Of a DNA stretch of 49,511 nucleotides, positions 27,313 through 49,332 are shown in pieces. The position numbers and the translations under genes are program-made. This stretch comes from Candidatus Korarchaeum sp. (GTDB lineage: Archaea; Korarchaeota; Korarchaeia; Korarchaeales; Korarchaeaceae). Numbering within the stretch: position 1 is the stretch's first letter; every line of letters begins with the position of its first letter. The notes below the pieces were generated by a model, which saw only the letters and a list, made by a program, of their open reading frames with translations, ran no database searches and was not told where the DNA came from. The stretch spans positions 1-49,511 of the forward strand of contig JAJHQZ010000006.1 in the NCBI GenBank assembly GCA_020833055.1. Direction: 5' to 3'.

Positions 27313-27879
27313 TCAGAGGCCCCCTTTATAGTGGGGGAAAGCCGGGCATCCGGGGCACAGCCCCTCCTTGAACCTGCCGCAAGAACCGCAATCTGCCCCG
27401 CATGGGACTTCTGATCTCTCGACTATCCTTATTGGCAGATACTCCGGGTAGACTATGCTGCCACCGACTATGACCTCGCTCCTCCTGACCCCTTCAGCTG
27501 TCCTGAGGGCGCAAACGGAAGTTATGCTCTCCAGGACGTTGATGTCCTCAGCCACCATTATGGCAATTATGTTGTTCCCCCCTATCAGCCTGGAGAGGAA
27601 GATGAGCCTCGGACAGTCCCTAAATTTCTCAATTATCTTCGAGATGCTCTTATCATCCGAAGCCTCCATTAGCACCACAGCGTGCCTCAGATCGAGGGCT
27701 CTGGGGCTTAAACAAGCTGATACCTTCATGACCCCTTCCTCAATTAATCTCATCACGTGCTTCCTCACAGCTACGTGCGTCATCCCGAGGGACTTCCCCA
27801 TCTCCGAGTACGAGGCTCTCCCGTCCCTCTGGAGGATCTCCACTATCCTCCTCTCGACGGAGCTCAGCCTCCCGCGCAT
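27313..27879 (-). CDS. Lrp/AsnC-type regulator with cysteine-rich tail
   Basis: 188 residues from the ATG at 27879; the frame stays open upstream only by running through the divergent promoter. The N-terminal helix-turn-helix is VERRIVEILQRDGRASYSEM, then GMTHVAVRKHVMRLIEEGVM. A Lrp-like ligand domain follows. The last 30 residues (CGADCGSCGRFKEGLCPGCP) hold six cysteines in C-x3-C-x2-C-x7-C-x2-C order (plus an earlier one), a likely zinc or iron-sulphur site unusual for Lrp proteins. It may sense metal or redox state. It is divergent from the DGC-domain gene, with a palindrome between them. Confidence 0.82.
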   Translation of the reverse strand: MRGRLSSVERRIVEILQRDGRASYSEMGKSLGMTHVAVRKHVMRLIEEGVMKVSACLSPRALDLRHAVVLMEASDDKSISKIIEKFRDCPRLIFLSRLIGGNNIIAIMVAEDINVLESITSVCALRTAEGVRRSEVIVGGSIVYPEYLPIRIVERSEVPCGADCGSCGRFKEGLCPGCPAFPHYKGGL

Positions 27880-27888
27880 ATTCAAATT

Positions 27889-27914
27889 GTAACCATACCT
27901 TTTATAATGGTTAC
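27889..27914. promoter_or_regulatory. Palindrome over the shared divergent promoter
   Basis: GTAACCAT at 27889-27896 and ATGGTTAC at 27907-27914 are perfect 8-base arms around ACCTTTTATA, which serves as TATA box for the rightward gene. This is a likely binding site of the Lrp-type regulator, 10 bases from its own start codon. Confidence 0.7.
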
Positions 27915-27994
27915 TAAATTTATCCATAGGTGATGGCGATGCAGAGCTATCAATTGTTGCCGCACTGCAGGACCATGCGGAGAACCTCATAATA

Positions 27995-28339
27995 GTGGCT
28001 ACTTGCGATGGAGCATCTTCAGTGGGGCAGATAGGGAATGAAGTCGCGAGGATGCTCACGAAGGAGTTCCCGGATAAGGTGAGGATGTGTTGCCTATCAG
28101 CTGTAGCGGCCGGTTCGAAAACTCACCTAGATATATTCAGAAAAACTAGAGCTGTTCTAGCGATAAATGGATGCCAGCTGATGTGCGCATCCAATGTCCT
28201 GAAGCAGAGAGGGATAGAACCGGCTTACGAAGTCACGATCTCTAATGAGGGCGTCAGCAAAGTACCATCGCTGGATTTCTCATACGATGCCATGAGGGTA
28301 GCTGAAAAGATAGTAGAGGATTTCCTCAAGAAGTTGTAG
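27995..28339 (+). CDS. DGC-domain putative zinc-binding protein
   Basis: CDGASSVGQIGNEVARMLT is the DGC-domain signature (Asp-Gly-Cys-type family, PF08859), and INGCQLMCASNVLKQRGI carries further conserved cysteines. The family is thought to bind metal. The GTG at 27995 lies very close to the signature. In the same frame upstream, 27935-27994 reads AELSIVAALQDHAENLIIV, which looks like genuine N-terminus but has no ATG. A GGTGAT site with ATGs at 27935 and 27941 lies in another frame, so either a one-base frameshift or an unusual start is present. The true 5' end is unresolved. Confidence 0.7.
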   Translation: MATCDGASSVGQIGNEVARMLTKEFPDKVRMCCLSAVAAGSKTHLDIFRKTRAVLAINGCQLMCASNVLKQRGIEPAYEVTISNEGVSKVPSLDFSYDAMRVAEKIVEDFLKKL

Positions 28340-29046: not shown

Positions 29047-29247
29047 TCATCTCCTCCCGTAGATAGCATCGAATGTATCCCTGGGAAGGAATATCCCCTT
29101 TCTTTTAACTCTATGCTTCTCCCTGTATTCCCTCTTGCACCTCTTACTGCAGAAGTGCTTGCCTCTCCACTCGAGCCCCTTGCCCCTGATGATCCTCCCG
29201 CAATTAGCGCACCTCTTAGCTGTGAGAAACTTCAACATCTCACTCAA
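29047..29247 (-). CDS. Small zinc-ribbon protein
   Basis: 66 residues with two Cys pairs: CANCGRIIRG, then FCSKRCKREYREKHR, arranged C-x2-C-x15-C-x3-C as in TRASH-like or treble-clef zinc domains. The tail is basic. Such small proteins may bind nucleic acid or ribosomes. It lies 26 bases after the ilvC remnant on the same strand. Confidence 0.65.
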   Translation of the reverse strand: MSEMLKFLTAKRCANCGRIIRGKGLEWRGKHFCSKRCKREYREKHRVKRKGIFLPRDTFDAIYGRR

Positions 29248-30560: not shown

Positions 30561-31508
30561 ATGCGGTACAATCTGCTGCTCCCACTGATGATGCTTTCAA
30601 TCCTACTGCTATCTGCCATTCCGAATAATACGCTTGAGCTGGGCAGCGGGAAGGTCGCTGTTATGTTCTGGAGCGAGCTCTGTTTCAACTGCGAGAGGAT
30701 CCTGCCCGTATGGCGGAGCATAGAGAGAGATCCGCCCGCCGGAATCAAGGTAATAGATATTAAGCTCACCCCGGGCAAAAACGAAAATATTTTCGTCGAG
30801 TTTGGTATAAAGGAGACACCGACTATAATACTATTCGAGAATGGGAGGGAGGTTAAGAGGATAAGTGGGTTGAGCGATGCCTCCGAGAGCTACCTGAGGG
30901 ATTGGATAGAGGGGAAAAGTGATCTTCAGTTGATAAGCTTTGCTTTCCCCGTACTGGGTGGTCTATTAGCCCTCTCCCCCTGCTCCCTCCCCATAATGAT
31001 GTCCCTGACGCCTCTCGGGAGGTTCTCCAGGAGGAGGGATTACGCGACTTGCTTCATATCATCCACGCTCGGCGTGATCTCACTGGGGATGGCCTTCCTC
31101 CTCATATCATCCCTGCTCAAGTTAGTCGTCAAGTGGATCGTATACGCTCTAGCTCTCTTCAGCGTAATTTTGGGCATATTCATGATCCTCTCCCCTGAGA
31201 AATCTTGCAGAATGACCGGGAAAGTTAAGAGCTCATTTACATGCTTCAGCCTCGGCTTCCTAGCGATGCAATGCAACCTGCCCCTGGTGATCGGTTCCTT
31301 CATGCTCTTGAGCGCTAGTGACTTCGCTCAGGGGATCGTGAACCTCATATCCCTCTCCTTAGGGATGAGCCTGACTTTTCTAATAGTAGTTAGGACATCG
31401 AAGGGTATTTCAGCGAGGCTCTCGCCCTCGAGGAGCTTCAATGTGAGCAGGCTCGGCGGTGCCCTCCTCACTCTGATAGGATTATACCTCATAATTTCTA
31501 ACATTTAG
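30561..31508 (+). CDS. Thioredoxin-CcdA fusion, membrane thiol redox protein
   Basis: 315 residues. A signal-like helix (LLLPLMMLSILLLSAIP) leads to a thioredoxin fold with SELCFNCERILPVW, a C-F-N-C active site near residues 38-41, and TPTIILFENGREVKRISG with the cis-Pro. From about residue 130 there are six transmembrane helices of the CcdA/DsbD type, each half with a key Cys: ALSPCSLPIMMSL and FLAMQCNLPLVIGS. It likely carries reducing power from the cytoplasm across the membrane to extracytoplasmic thiols. Fusion of both parts in one short chain is compact compared with bacterial DsbD. Confidence 0.85.
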   Translation: MRYNLLLPLMMLSILLLSAIPNNTLELGSGKVAVMFWSELCFNCERILPVWRSIERDPPAGIKVIDIKLTPGKNENIFVEFGIKETPTIILFENGREVKRISGLSDASESYLRDWIEGKSDLQLISFAFPVLGGLLALSPCSLPIMMSLTPLGRFSRRRDYATCFISSTLGVISLGMAFLLISSLLKLVVKWIVYALALFSVILGIFMILSPEKSCRMTGKVKSSFTCFSLGFLAMQCNLPLVIGSFMLLSASDFAQGIVNLISLSLGMSLTFLIVVRTSKGISARLSPSRSFNVSRLGGALLTLIGLYLIISNI

Positions 31509-46677: not shown

Positions 46678-47289
46678 ATGCCCTACAGCTTCAACTTCGA
46701 CCTCTCATCCCTGCCTAAGAGCTTCTTCTCGGAGATAATCAGAGCTTCTCATAAAGCCAGGATCCACAGGAAGCTCACTTCCACAGCCAGGAGGATAGTG
46801 AAACTCTTCAAACTGGAGGAAATAACAGGACTGGATTTGGAGAAAGCCATATCCCTTGTTGAGGACCTCATCGAGATATTCATGCTCAATGAGATGAACA
46901 GGGGGAGGTTCGAGGGAGTGAGGAGGAAGGCCCTATTCCTCCCCCATTGCTCGAGGAAGTACATGGATTCGAGGTGCAGGGCTGAGTTCAGGGAGGATCT
47001 ATCTACTTACGTCTGCGGGAAGTGCTCCGATGATTGTCTCATAAGGAGGGCCAGCGAGCTCGCTGAGGAGAGGGGTTACGATGTCTATGTGGTCCCGGGG
47101 GGATCCTGCATACCTAAGATAATAGAGAAGATGAATTACGAAGCTGTAGTAGGTGTCGCTTGCGGCATGGAGCTCCTCTTGGCTTACCGATACTTGAAGG
47201 ACTTCCCAGCCCAAGGTGTACCTTTAATGAGGAATGGATGCTCTAGAACTATCTTTGACCTCGAATCCCTTGAGAACTCCCTTCTCTGA
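46678..47289 (+). CDS. DUF116 family protein
   Basis: About 203 residues. FLPHCSRKYMDSRCRAEFRE, then CGKCSDDCLIRRASELAEER, then YVVPGGSCIPKIIEK and VGVACGMELLLAYRYLK are DUF116 hallmarks, with seven or more cysteines that may hold an iron-sulphur cluster. The function is unknown. It begins 37 bases after the tRNA methyltransferase. It is convergent with the MFS gene and overlaps it by 66 bases. The in-frame ATG at 46663 is an alternative start. Confidence 0.85.
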   Translation: MPYSFNFDLSSLPKSFFSEIIRASHKARIHRKLTSTARRIVKLFKLEEITGLDLEKAISLVEDLIEIFMLNEMNRGRFEGVRRKALFLPHCSRKYMDSRCRAEFREDLSTYVCGKCSDDCLIRRASELAEERGYDVYVVPGGSCIPKIIEKMNYEAVVGVACGMELLLAYRYLKDFPAQGVPLMRNGCSRTIFDLESLENSLL

Positions 47290-48717
47290 TTTTCGAATCG
47301 CCCTATTCAGGGGGAGCCTAGATGCTGAGAAGAGCATCGCTGATGCCATTATCAACGATTGAAATTTGAAGGTCTCGCTCAGAGCCCTCGAGAGCAGATT
47401 CACATTCCCCAGATCTATCGGATTCGTTAACTCGGCAGCTATGAGCTTCGAGGCTAAATCGTAGGGGATGAAGCCAGTCATAAGGAGGACGCTCAGATTC
47501 AAGCTGGCTGCAAATCCTATGTTGAAGGATAGAGTCCTCATGGATGAGGCGACTCCCCTCCTCTCCTGAGGGGCCCCTGCCATTATCGAGCTAGCGTTTG
47601 GAGTGACGAAGAGGCCGGCTCCGCAGCCCAGGAGGAGCATAGTCGCTACTATTAACCCTATTGATGTCTGAGTGGAGAAAAGGGACATCATATAGAGGGA
47701 AGTTGAGGAGAGAGCGAGACCCAGCATCGTTATAGGGGCATATCCGTATTTATCGGAGAGCTTACCTCCCAGAGTCCCGAATATGAGGAAGGAGAACTCG
47801 AAGGGGAGGAGGAGCATCCCGGTCAAGGATGCGCTCAACCCCTTAACTACTGAGAGGTAGATGACTAGCAGCACTGTGACGGAGCCGAAGGCGAGGGAGT
47901 AGAGGAACTGAGCTACTATGCCCCCTGCGAACTGCCAATTCCTGAAGATCCTCAGATCTAGGGCTGGTGAAGACGACTTCAGCTCGAGATAGATGAAGAG
48001 GAGGAGTATCAGGGATCCCAGGGAAGCTAAGATGAGCGATGCCCTGATGTAAGCGCTACCGTATGCGGCGAGCGTGAGGGATAGTAGTATCGATGAGATC
48101 GCTGAAGTGAAGGAGAGGAAGCCAGGATAATCTACTTTCGCTTTAACAGGCCTGTAAACTTCCTTGAGCCTCATCTTAGACCAGAAAACTGAGATGAGCC
48201 CCAGGGGGACGTGAACCCAGAAGACCCACCTCCAGCCCAAGTTATCTATTATCAGACCCCCCAGGGTCAGGCCTATGAGGGAACCTAGCCTGAAGGCTAT
48301 CTGATTGACCCCTATCCATGTCCCCAGCTGTCCCTTGGGCACAGAATCTGTTATTATTGTCAAGCTCAAGCTCATGAGGAAAGCTGCCCCGATCCCCTGG
48401 ATTAGCCTCAGGGAGATCAATTGAAATACGTTAGAGGAGAAGCCGCAGAGCAATGAGGATAGTGAGAAAAAGGCGAAACCCATTGAGAAGAGGTTAACTC
48501 TCCCGTAGATATCGCTCAAGCTCCCGACAATCAATTGTACAGCTGTAGAACCGAGCATATAAGCTTGAGTCAACCATATCACTTGCTCGACATCGGCCCC
48601 TAAGGAGTGGGCTAGCTCAGGTATCCCGACCACAAGTATCCTGGCGTTTATTCCTGTGAGGAAGGAGGCTAAGGTGGTGACTGAGAGAACGTGCAGTATT
48701 TCTCTTCTTTCGCTCAT
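47224..48717 (-). CDS. MFS exporter, 14-TM DHA2-like
   Basis: 497 residues with about 14 transmembrane helices. VVGIPELAHSLGADVEQVIW and LTQAYMLGSTAVQLIVGSLS, followed by DIYGRVNLFSMGFAFFSLSS, are the first helices and motif A of drug:H+ antiporters of the DHA2 group. RLIQGIGAAFLMSLSLTII and IIDNLGWRWVFWVHVPLG are motifs B and C regions. It probably expels drugs or metabolites. It overlaps DUF116 by 66 bases tail to tail. Confidence 0.88.
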   Translation of the reverse strand: MSERREILHVLSVTTLASFLTGINARILVVGIPELAHSLGADVEQVIWLTQAYMLGSTAVQLIVGSLSDIYGRVNLFSMGFAFFSLSSLLCGFSSNVFQLISLRLIQGIGAAFLMSLSLTIITDSVPKGQLGTWIGVNQIAFRLGSLIGLTLGGLIIDNLGWRWVFWVHVPLGLISVFWSKMRLKEVYRPVKAKVDYPGFLSFTSAISSILLSLTLAAYGSAYIRASLILASLGSLILLLFIYLELKSSSPALDLRIFRNWQFAGGIVAQFLYSLAFGSVTVLLVIYLSVVKGLSASLTGMLLLPFEFSFLIFGTLGGKLSDKYGYAPITMLGLALSSTSLYMMSLFSTQTSIGLIVATMLLLGCGAGLFVTPNASSIMAGAPQERRGVASSMRTLSFNIGFAASLNLSVLLMTGFIPYDLASKLIAAELTNPIDLGNVNLLSRALSETFKFQSLIMASAMLFSASRLPLNRAIRKSEKGVLKGFEVKDSSRASIPH

Positions 48718-48925: not shown

Positions 48926-49332
48926 CTTCGCATGGATTGAGTTTTAAATTTAAACTTTTCAATTGCATGAAGGCCATCTGACCAGTATCCACTTAAAATT
49001 ATTAGATACATCCAGTATATCATTAAAATATGAACGTTATATATCATAAATATCTTTATTTTTACCTAAAAAGCGGATCGATGCGGATATCTCGGAATGT
49101 TGAAGATATATGGGAATAGTAGGGAGTTTGAGGATCAGATCCCTCTGATAGGCATCGCTCTGGATATCTTTTTAAATATTGGAGCCCTTTAGCTCGCAAT
49201 GAAAACCTCGGGCTAGCGGCCGAGGGGCTGTGAGAACCCACTAAACGCAATAGAAAGTAGCTGAGAGATCAGCTAGGAAGCCTCTGGTTTATGCGAAGGA
49301 GATCCAAAGAGTTTTAAGTTCTGGTATTCAGC
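48926..49332. other. Gene-free stretch with a possible third TnpB tail
   Basis: 48960-49090 is AT-rich with no sensible frame. At 49199-49310 the plus strand reads RPRGCENPLNAIES, then EASGLCEGDPKSFKF, with in-frame stops. This vaguely resembles the C-terminal tail of TnpB proteins. A hairpin CCTCGG-N8-CCGAGG lies at about 49207-49226. The identification is weak; a small structured RNA is an alternative. Confidence 0.3.

Follow-up and report, generated by a model that had tools for sequence, protein, structure and literature searches.

The window analysed here, a stretch of 49,511 nucleotides from Candidatus Korarchaeum sp. (assembly GCA_020833055.1, contig JAJHQZ010000006.1), carries a gene for a Lrp-type regulator with a Cys-rich tail that faces a gene for a DGC-domain protein across a palindrome, and raises the question of which signal this regulator reads and which genes it controls. 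The features needed to follow the argument are (window coordinates):

27313-27879, minus strand: Cys-tailed Lrp/AsnC-type regulator of 188 aa (ORF reading, Pfam HTH_AsnC, Lrp fold match to PH0140)
27727-27861, minus strand: winged helix, residues 7-51, with the recognition-helix motif THVAV including His35 (Pfam HTH_AsnC-type and HTH_24; model helices 7-18, 24-31 and 35-47)
27463-27687, minus strand: RAM/AsnC ligand-binding domain, residues 65-139, with the conserved C89 and C123 (weak PF01037; model strands and helices over 65-139)
27316-27417, minus strand: C-terminal Cys tail, residues 155-188, with C160, C164, C167, C175 and C178 in the pattern CGxxCxxCxR(x5)CxGCP (sequence and alignment)
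27879-27893, minus strand: predicted operator at the regulator start, TATTCAAATTGTAAC on the plus strand, 8.7 bits (PWM), overlapping the A of the start codon
27889-27914, no strand: palindrome GTAACCAT-N10-ATGGTTAC, re-read as the inner half-sites of two operators
27900-27907, no strand: putative TATA box TTTTATAA between both operators (sequence reading; common to the loci L003-L005)
27910-27924, plus strand: predicted operator on the DGC side, GTTACTAAATTTATC, 9.3 bits (PWM), 31 bp from the other operator
27933-28339, plus strand: DGC-domain (PF08859) gene, the open frame of the domain being 27908-28339 (Pfam; comparison with the genome G009)

The Lrp-type regulator with a Cys-rich tail announced by the preliminary description was borne out by the 188-aa minus-strand ORF and by a Pfam profile match to HTH_AsnC (E 2.5e-8). 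An ORF reaching up to a GTG limit at 28059 was rejected, since it is only an open-frame extension overlapping the DGC gene; the real gene limit is the ATG at 27879. The AsnC-type winged helix passed the cut-off of PF13404 (34 bits, cut-off 27), and the RAM domain stayed below that of PF01037 (E 0.0064, 16.8 bits, cut-off 25). The AlphaFold model is confident throughout (pLDDT 94.8; tail mean ~89-94), and its best structural match is PH0140 (Z 14.1, rmsd 2.0, 151 aligned residues) over residues 1-154. The model thus predicts a Lrp fold, and this fold match, together with PF01037 in other members, identifies the second domain as the RAM ligand domain of the Lrp/AsnC (FFRP) proteins. The cysteines are at positions 55, 89, 123, 160, 164, 167, 175 and 178, and the Cys tail falls outside the regions matching Lrp structures.

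None of the Pfam profiles covers the tail. The nearest model is DUF3795 (PF12675), whose start resembles the first 16-18 residues of three of the five tails tested (E 0.014-0.11, all below cut-off; best score 16.3 bits against 22.6, in another member's tail), and which does not match the tail of the window regulator itself. The TRASH motif reads C-x(19-22)-C-x3-C; the Cys spacing of the regulator is unsuitable for it and no TRASH model was found at E<=1 (Pfam), which rules out a TRASH tail.

A similarity search across 29 korarchaeal genomes retrieved 21 strong regulator matches in 18 of them, as well as 14 weaker ones; the former (regulators with the Cys tail) and the latter (ordinary Lrp) were treated as separate sets. 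All five tail cysteines are kept in the 20 korarchaeal members read, which had been retrieved by whole-protein similarity (the remaining strong match, G028:C22, is outside these 20), and an alignment of 17 members shows C89, C123 and the five tail cysteines to be all invariant. A degenerate tail pattern is present in at least 120 contigs, 119 of the matches listed being archaeal (Asgard groups, Bathy-, Brock- and Korarchaeota, Archaeoglobi) and one a Firmicutes MAG; this single Firmicutes-labelled contig (L090) bears an otherwise archaeal regulator, pointing to transfer or mis-binning. Among the matches listed, the motif CP[RYKH] containing C89 is found in 102 out of 102 full-length ORFs, although it is absent from the scan pattern, and a C123-type motif in 89 of them (full-length meaning that the tail is preceded by at least 145 aa; the other 18 of the 120 listed contigs, with shorter or cut ORFs, were excluded). 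HTH_AsnC is matched at E<=0.01 by 73 of 74 aligned members and PF01037 by 47. The cysteines are therefore conserved, whereas a lack of conservation would have refuted the preliminary description by its own terms. Its remark that the tail is unusual holds for Lrp proteins in general but not within the Cys-tail subfamily, where the tail is universal; judged from the sequences, CGxxCxxCxR(x5)CxGCP marks out an archaeal subfamily of wide distribution.

The inverted repeat of the shared promoter is real: its arms GTAACCAT and ATGGTTAC (27889-27896 and 27907-27914) are exact with a 10-nt spacer and intact in the nearest relative L003, and a shorter GTAACC/GGTTAC pair is left in L004 and L005. To place it in context, a palindromic EM was run on the upstream regions of 93 dereplicated regulators, including the window and two close relatives. 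The resulting motif, GTT[A/T][C/A]-N5-[G/T][A/T]AAC, reached a log-likelihood of 217 versus 14-22 in ten mononucleotide shuffles, scores at least 9 bits in 55 of the 93 regions, and has a consensus, GTTAC-N5-GTAAC, that recurs upstream of the regulator gene across archaea. A second site of at least 5 bits accompanies the first in 24 of 71 promoters (6-18 in shuffled promoters, spacing ignored), at a distance of 31-32 bp in 16 of these 24. The two operators of the window score low (8.7 and 9.3 bits), the window itself being one of the 93 training sequences. Since two 15-bp sites with a spacing of 31-32 bp account for both arms, the single palindrome of the preliminary description cannot be taken as one operator; each arm is the inner half-site of a separate one. 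A search for the outer half-site pattern in the genome of the window (G000) gave no match and is uninformative. The TATA box TTTTATAA would be used by both promoters and, from its position, both divergent transcripts would be nearly leaderless. The base at operator positions 5/11 may vary with the residue that the recognition helix has at the place of His35: His is combined with C/G at these positions in 28 against 2 cases, compared with 3 against 20 (Fisher p 1.7e-9). Taken as independent events, this association fails on the tree, where the trait changes only four times with one well-supported independent pair, so we keep it as a lead.

A predicted regulon came into view when the consensus was searched in whole genomes. 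The 1.39-Mb G000 genome contains the exact GTTACN5GTAAC a single time, on another contig, just upstream of its sole TauE gene (C2:10172-10186, 14.5 bits, ~48 bp before the first start codon), a site that was not in the motif training. In G009, a genome of the same genus whose regulator is 97% identical to that of the window and which has two TauE matches, the only exact copy is likewise located at a tauE; the reversed pattern has no copy in either genome. Because the two genomes are near-identical, both sites count as one event. More generally, a site of at least 13 bits precedes four of the 24 tauE copies that do not adjoin the regulator in regulator-bearing genomes (G000, G009, G006 and G001), and the other 20 have no strong site, two of the 24 stretches being cut by contig ends. 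In genomes where no Cys-tail regulator was detected, some of them incomplete, none of 16 tauE genes reaches 11 bits, a score that random 331-bp windows attain in 0.1% of cases. This survey excludes seven tauE matches that are weak or fragmentary. The sole exact site is at the regulator itself in G032, G056, G068 and G069. Further exact sites in G029 (L208), G055 and G060 have no clear target by the HMMs used, except for a Mrp-type gene near L205, and the exact site is absent from six of 13 further genomes searched, including G010, G024 and G026. The operator of tauE is located between this gene and a divergent one, a ferredoxin-type ORF in G000 (L204) and an aldehyde:ferredoxin-oxidoreductase-like ORF in G009 (L203), both ORFs being named by the look of their sequence.

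Gene neighbourhoods point to the same target. TauE/SafE permeases are the main neighbours of the Cys-tail regulators and DGC is a minority partner. A TauE gene is located within 350 bp of 10 of the 21 korarchaeal Cys-tail regulators (G024, G010, G013, G017, G021, G006, G007, G005, G028 and G003) and of none of the 14 ordinary korarchaeal Lrp matches, while DGC adjoins three of the 21 (G000, G009 and G026). Among the 120 contigs listed with the tail pattern, TauE is found in 28, SBF (SBF/ACR3-like) in 10, SLAC1 in four and ArsP_1 in three, any of these exporters in 40, and DGC in five. Linkage between regulator and DGC, the co-occurrence that the preliminary description proposed to check, does recur, as a minority arrangement: the regulator diverges from Mrp-DGC in the Brockarchaeota-type loci L182, L183 and L185 (with a shortened regulator ORF in L185) and from USP-antiporter-radical SAM-DGC in L189 and L190. 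Close relatives of the window regulator face tauE in G024 and G010, and the DGC frame of G026 (L033, 1348-1875) opens with ~20 residues resembling the TauE start of G024; this tauE-like remnant suggests that a deletion has put DGC in the place of tauE. The picture of a regulator plus DGC over one palindrome thus gives way to two operators and an interchangeable partner, TauE being the dominant linked gene. Adjacency and the trans operator together place a TauE-type gene under the predicted control of the regulator. In a further neighbourhood, at least 14-15 Asgard contigs (Thorarchaeota and relatives; L043, L049, L051, L060, L114 and others) have the regulator beside left-handed beta-helix transferase-like and EF-2-like genes (named by eye), exporters being missing.

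The divergent DGC gene itself was confirmed (PF08859, E 2.6e-27, 95.4 bits, above the cut-off of 27), with a frame broken relative to G009. Its natural start is the ATG at 27933; one base is missing at ~27973 relative to G009, so that this ATG does not share its frame with the DGC domain. The matching ATG of G009 opens a frame that continues through MAMQSYQLLPHCGTHAENLIIVATCDGAS, in contrast to the window, where the first in-frame ATG/GTG/TTG is a GTG at 27995 that cuts into strand 1. The break may be either a mutation or an assembly error. Relative to G009, the regulator shows 4 synonymous and 7 non-synonymous codon changes and DGC 6 of each over 114 codons, numbers too small for a verdict on decay. 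C25, C81 and C85 are invariant in 13 aligned DGC proteins (L032 numbering). The DGC model is confident (pLDDT 94.5) and has no Foldseek match at E<=0.001; its best structural Z is 9.1, with 3pu6 (rmsd 3.1, 109 aligned). In L171 (G053), the DGC protein runs in frame into a GcvH-like domain (by eye), which could tie DGC to lipoate-based sulfur chemistry.

We propose that this protein is probably a Lrp repressor with Cys ligands that regulates its own gene as well as DGC and TauE, and that it responds to a thiol-reactive species of sulfur or a metalloid. The computation argues strongly for the operator and the regulon; the signal and the cofactor are inferred. From this locus a small stress regulon would be governed: the regulator would bind the two 15-bp operators (GTTAC-N5-GTAAC) flanking the TATA box shared with DGC, thereby controlling its own gene, and the third one upstream of the tauE-type exporter gene located elsewhere in the genome. 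Repression is the simplest mode of action for a Lrp-type protein that controls its own gene through paired sites at the core promoter, and in the resting state the regulator would most likely exert it by covering the TATA box. As sensor we envisage a Cys cluster formed by the five tail cysteines together with C89 of the ligand domain and, in most members, C123; the joint conservation and position of C89 and the tail suggest one site linking the two. The cluster may be triggered when it binds a thiol-reactive species, be it sulfite, persulfide-type sulfur or a soft metalloid (e.g., As(III)), or through a change in a Fe-S/zinc centre. We prefer reactive sulfur or a soft metalloid because the neighbouring exporters are of kinds that handle thiol-reactive anions. 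After derepression, TauE would export the anion and DGC would handle sulfur or metal. TauE is a broad family, and the protein here is considered a putative exporter with a substrate suggested by analogy. The metal or redox sensing unit of the preliminary description survives as one version of this broader sensor, without its framing as a regulator-DGC unit.

Could the cluster instead report Fe-S or redox status, C89 and the CxxxCxxC...CxxC tail holding an iron-sulfur cluster, with the exporters as one output only? The Cys spacing, as read from the sequence, permits this, the regulator is directly divergent to Mrp-DGC in three genomes, and Mrp/NUBPL (9), Fe-S PF04060 (7), radical SAM (-SPASM) (6) and NifX-type genes (5) among the 120 contigs listed also fit a Fe-S role. 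We nevertheless regard this explanation as rather unlikely, since anion or metalloid exporters are the commonest neighbours (40 of 120 contigs listed) and the korarchaeal regulon site stands at tauE. Somewhat improbable too is a purely structural role, in which the tail is a zinc knuckle stabilising the oligomer and the signal an ordinary small RAM ligand, e.g., an amino acid or a sulfonate. The Lrp fold over residues 1-154, the confident prediction of the tail as part of the fold and the limited resemblance that the tails of other members bear to DUF3795 (E at best 0.014, below cut-off) agree with this role; a conserved C89 inside the RAM domain (102 of 102 full ORFs listed) and the recurrence of exporters of thiol-reactive anions speak against it. 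A metalloid sensor proper, binding As(III)/Sb(III) or organoarsenicals in parallel to ArsR, would account for the SBF/ACR3-like and ArsP_1 neighbours and for the occurrence, in several genomes, of Trx_3 and ArsR-type genes close to DGC or the regulator, but the SBF protein of L057 is far under the ACR3 cut-off (68 of 283 bits) and TauE, whose bacterial representatives are described as putative sulfite/thiosulfate exporters (PMC7315123), is commoner, which makes this reading unlikely. A dedicated regulator-DGC unit, adjacent in G000, G009 and G026 and recurrent nearby elsewhere, is highly improbable and as a general rule ruled out, given the rarity of DGC (in four of 29 korarchaeal genomes, versus 18 of 29 with a strong regulator match), the divergent place held by tauE in close relatives and the trans site at tauE.

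Several features of the reactive-species repressor that we favour have counterparts in known systems. CstR, BigR/SqrR and FisR have the folds of CsoR, ArsR and a sigma-54 activator, respectively; the window regulator has a predicted Lrp fold that fits neither CsoR nor ArsR, and persulfide sensing is hypothetical for it. What it would share with these bacterial regulators is a Cys-based, or suspected, control of TauE-type exporters, the putative sulfite/thiosulfate exporters that are under reactive-sulfur sensors (PMC7315123). In CopR of Pyrococcus furiosus, a Lrp/AsnC HTH is combined with a C-terminal TRASH metal domain and the gene is divergent to copA (PMC7830388). The window regulator resembles this archaeal protein in its Lrp-type HTH, its C-terminal metal-binding-type Cys domain and its divergence from a transporter gene in related genomes, and the 15-bp semi-palindrome of CopR, TTNNCAWWWTGNNAA, has a similar CA/TG core. 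It differs in its tail (CxxxCxxC(x7)CxxC, not TRASH), its partner (TauE or DGC), the operators that flank the TATA box and overlap the regulator start, and the conserved C89 in the RAM domain. Moreover, CopR was shown to activate (PMC7830388), so activation is possible for such regulators, whereas the window regulator would repress. Ordinary archaeal Lrp/FFRP proteins (LrpA, FL11 and PH0140) share the HTH and RAM fold and clustered semi-palindromic sites, and lack the Cys tail and C89; the word 'cysteine' does not occur in the text of the source describing them (PMC2995911).

Ordinary archaeal Lrp/FFRP proteins are known for autoregulation and amino-acid effectors; the signal is known for few archaeal regulators, and amino acids are the subject of most studies on Lrp. 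A full-text word search of the open-licence literature, which cannot prove absence, yielded no publication on an archaeal Lrp family that combines a Cys tail with TauE. CopR sets a precedent for joining a C-terminal Cys domain to a Lrp fold; nothing in the literature reached describes this tail, its link to C89, the operator or a regulon containing TauE. It is possible, and we advance it tentatively, that these proteins form an undescribed archaea-wide class of Lrp-fold sensors in which a Cys cluster joining a C-terminal knuckle to the RAM domain detects stress by reactive sulfur or metalloids, with an ancient operator (GTTAC-N5-GTAAC) in paired sites flanking the TATA box, an archaeal counterpart of the CstR/BigR persulfide sensors. 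A Cys-tailed switch, found in many deep-branching archaea, that appears to act on a likely sulfite-type exporter and a small Cys protein by way of a conserved site in the DNA suggests that archaea have an alarm for reactive sulfur or for other chemicals of this kind that attack thiols. A large subfamily whose cysteines are invariant, an operator prediction and the blind discovery of a target (the single exact genome site at tauE) make archaeal sensing of sulfur oxyanions or metalloids directly testable, also in Asgard archaea and in sulfite- or sulfate-reducing lineages.

The window contains three further elements of interest. Its best operator-like sequence, GTTTTAAATTTAAAC (48941-48955, 12.3 bits), is located ~220 bp upstream of an ORF for a MFS-type transporter (47224-48717, minus strand; named by eye) and is of the A/T type, unlike the sites of the window regulator itself. 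A Cys-rich ORF of 66 aa (29047-29247) probably encodes a treble-clef zinc protein, all its Pfam matches being below cut-off. Finally, the ORF at 30561-31508 encodes a thioredoxin domain (PF00085, 7.9e-10) fused to a region with multiple membrane spans, the membrane part being recognized by eye.
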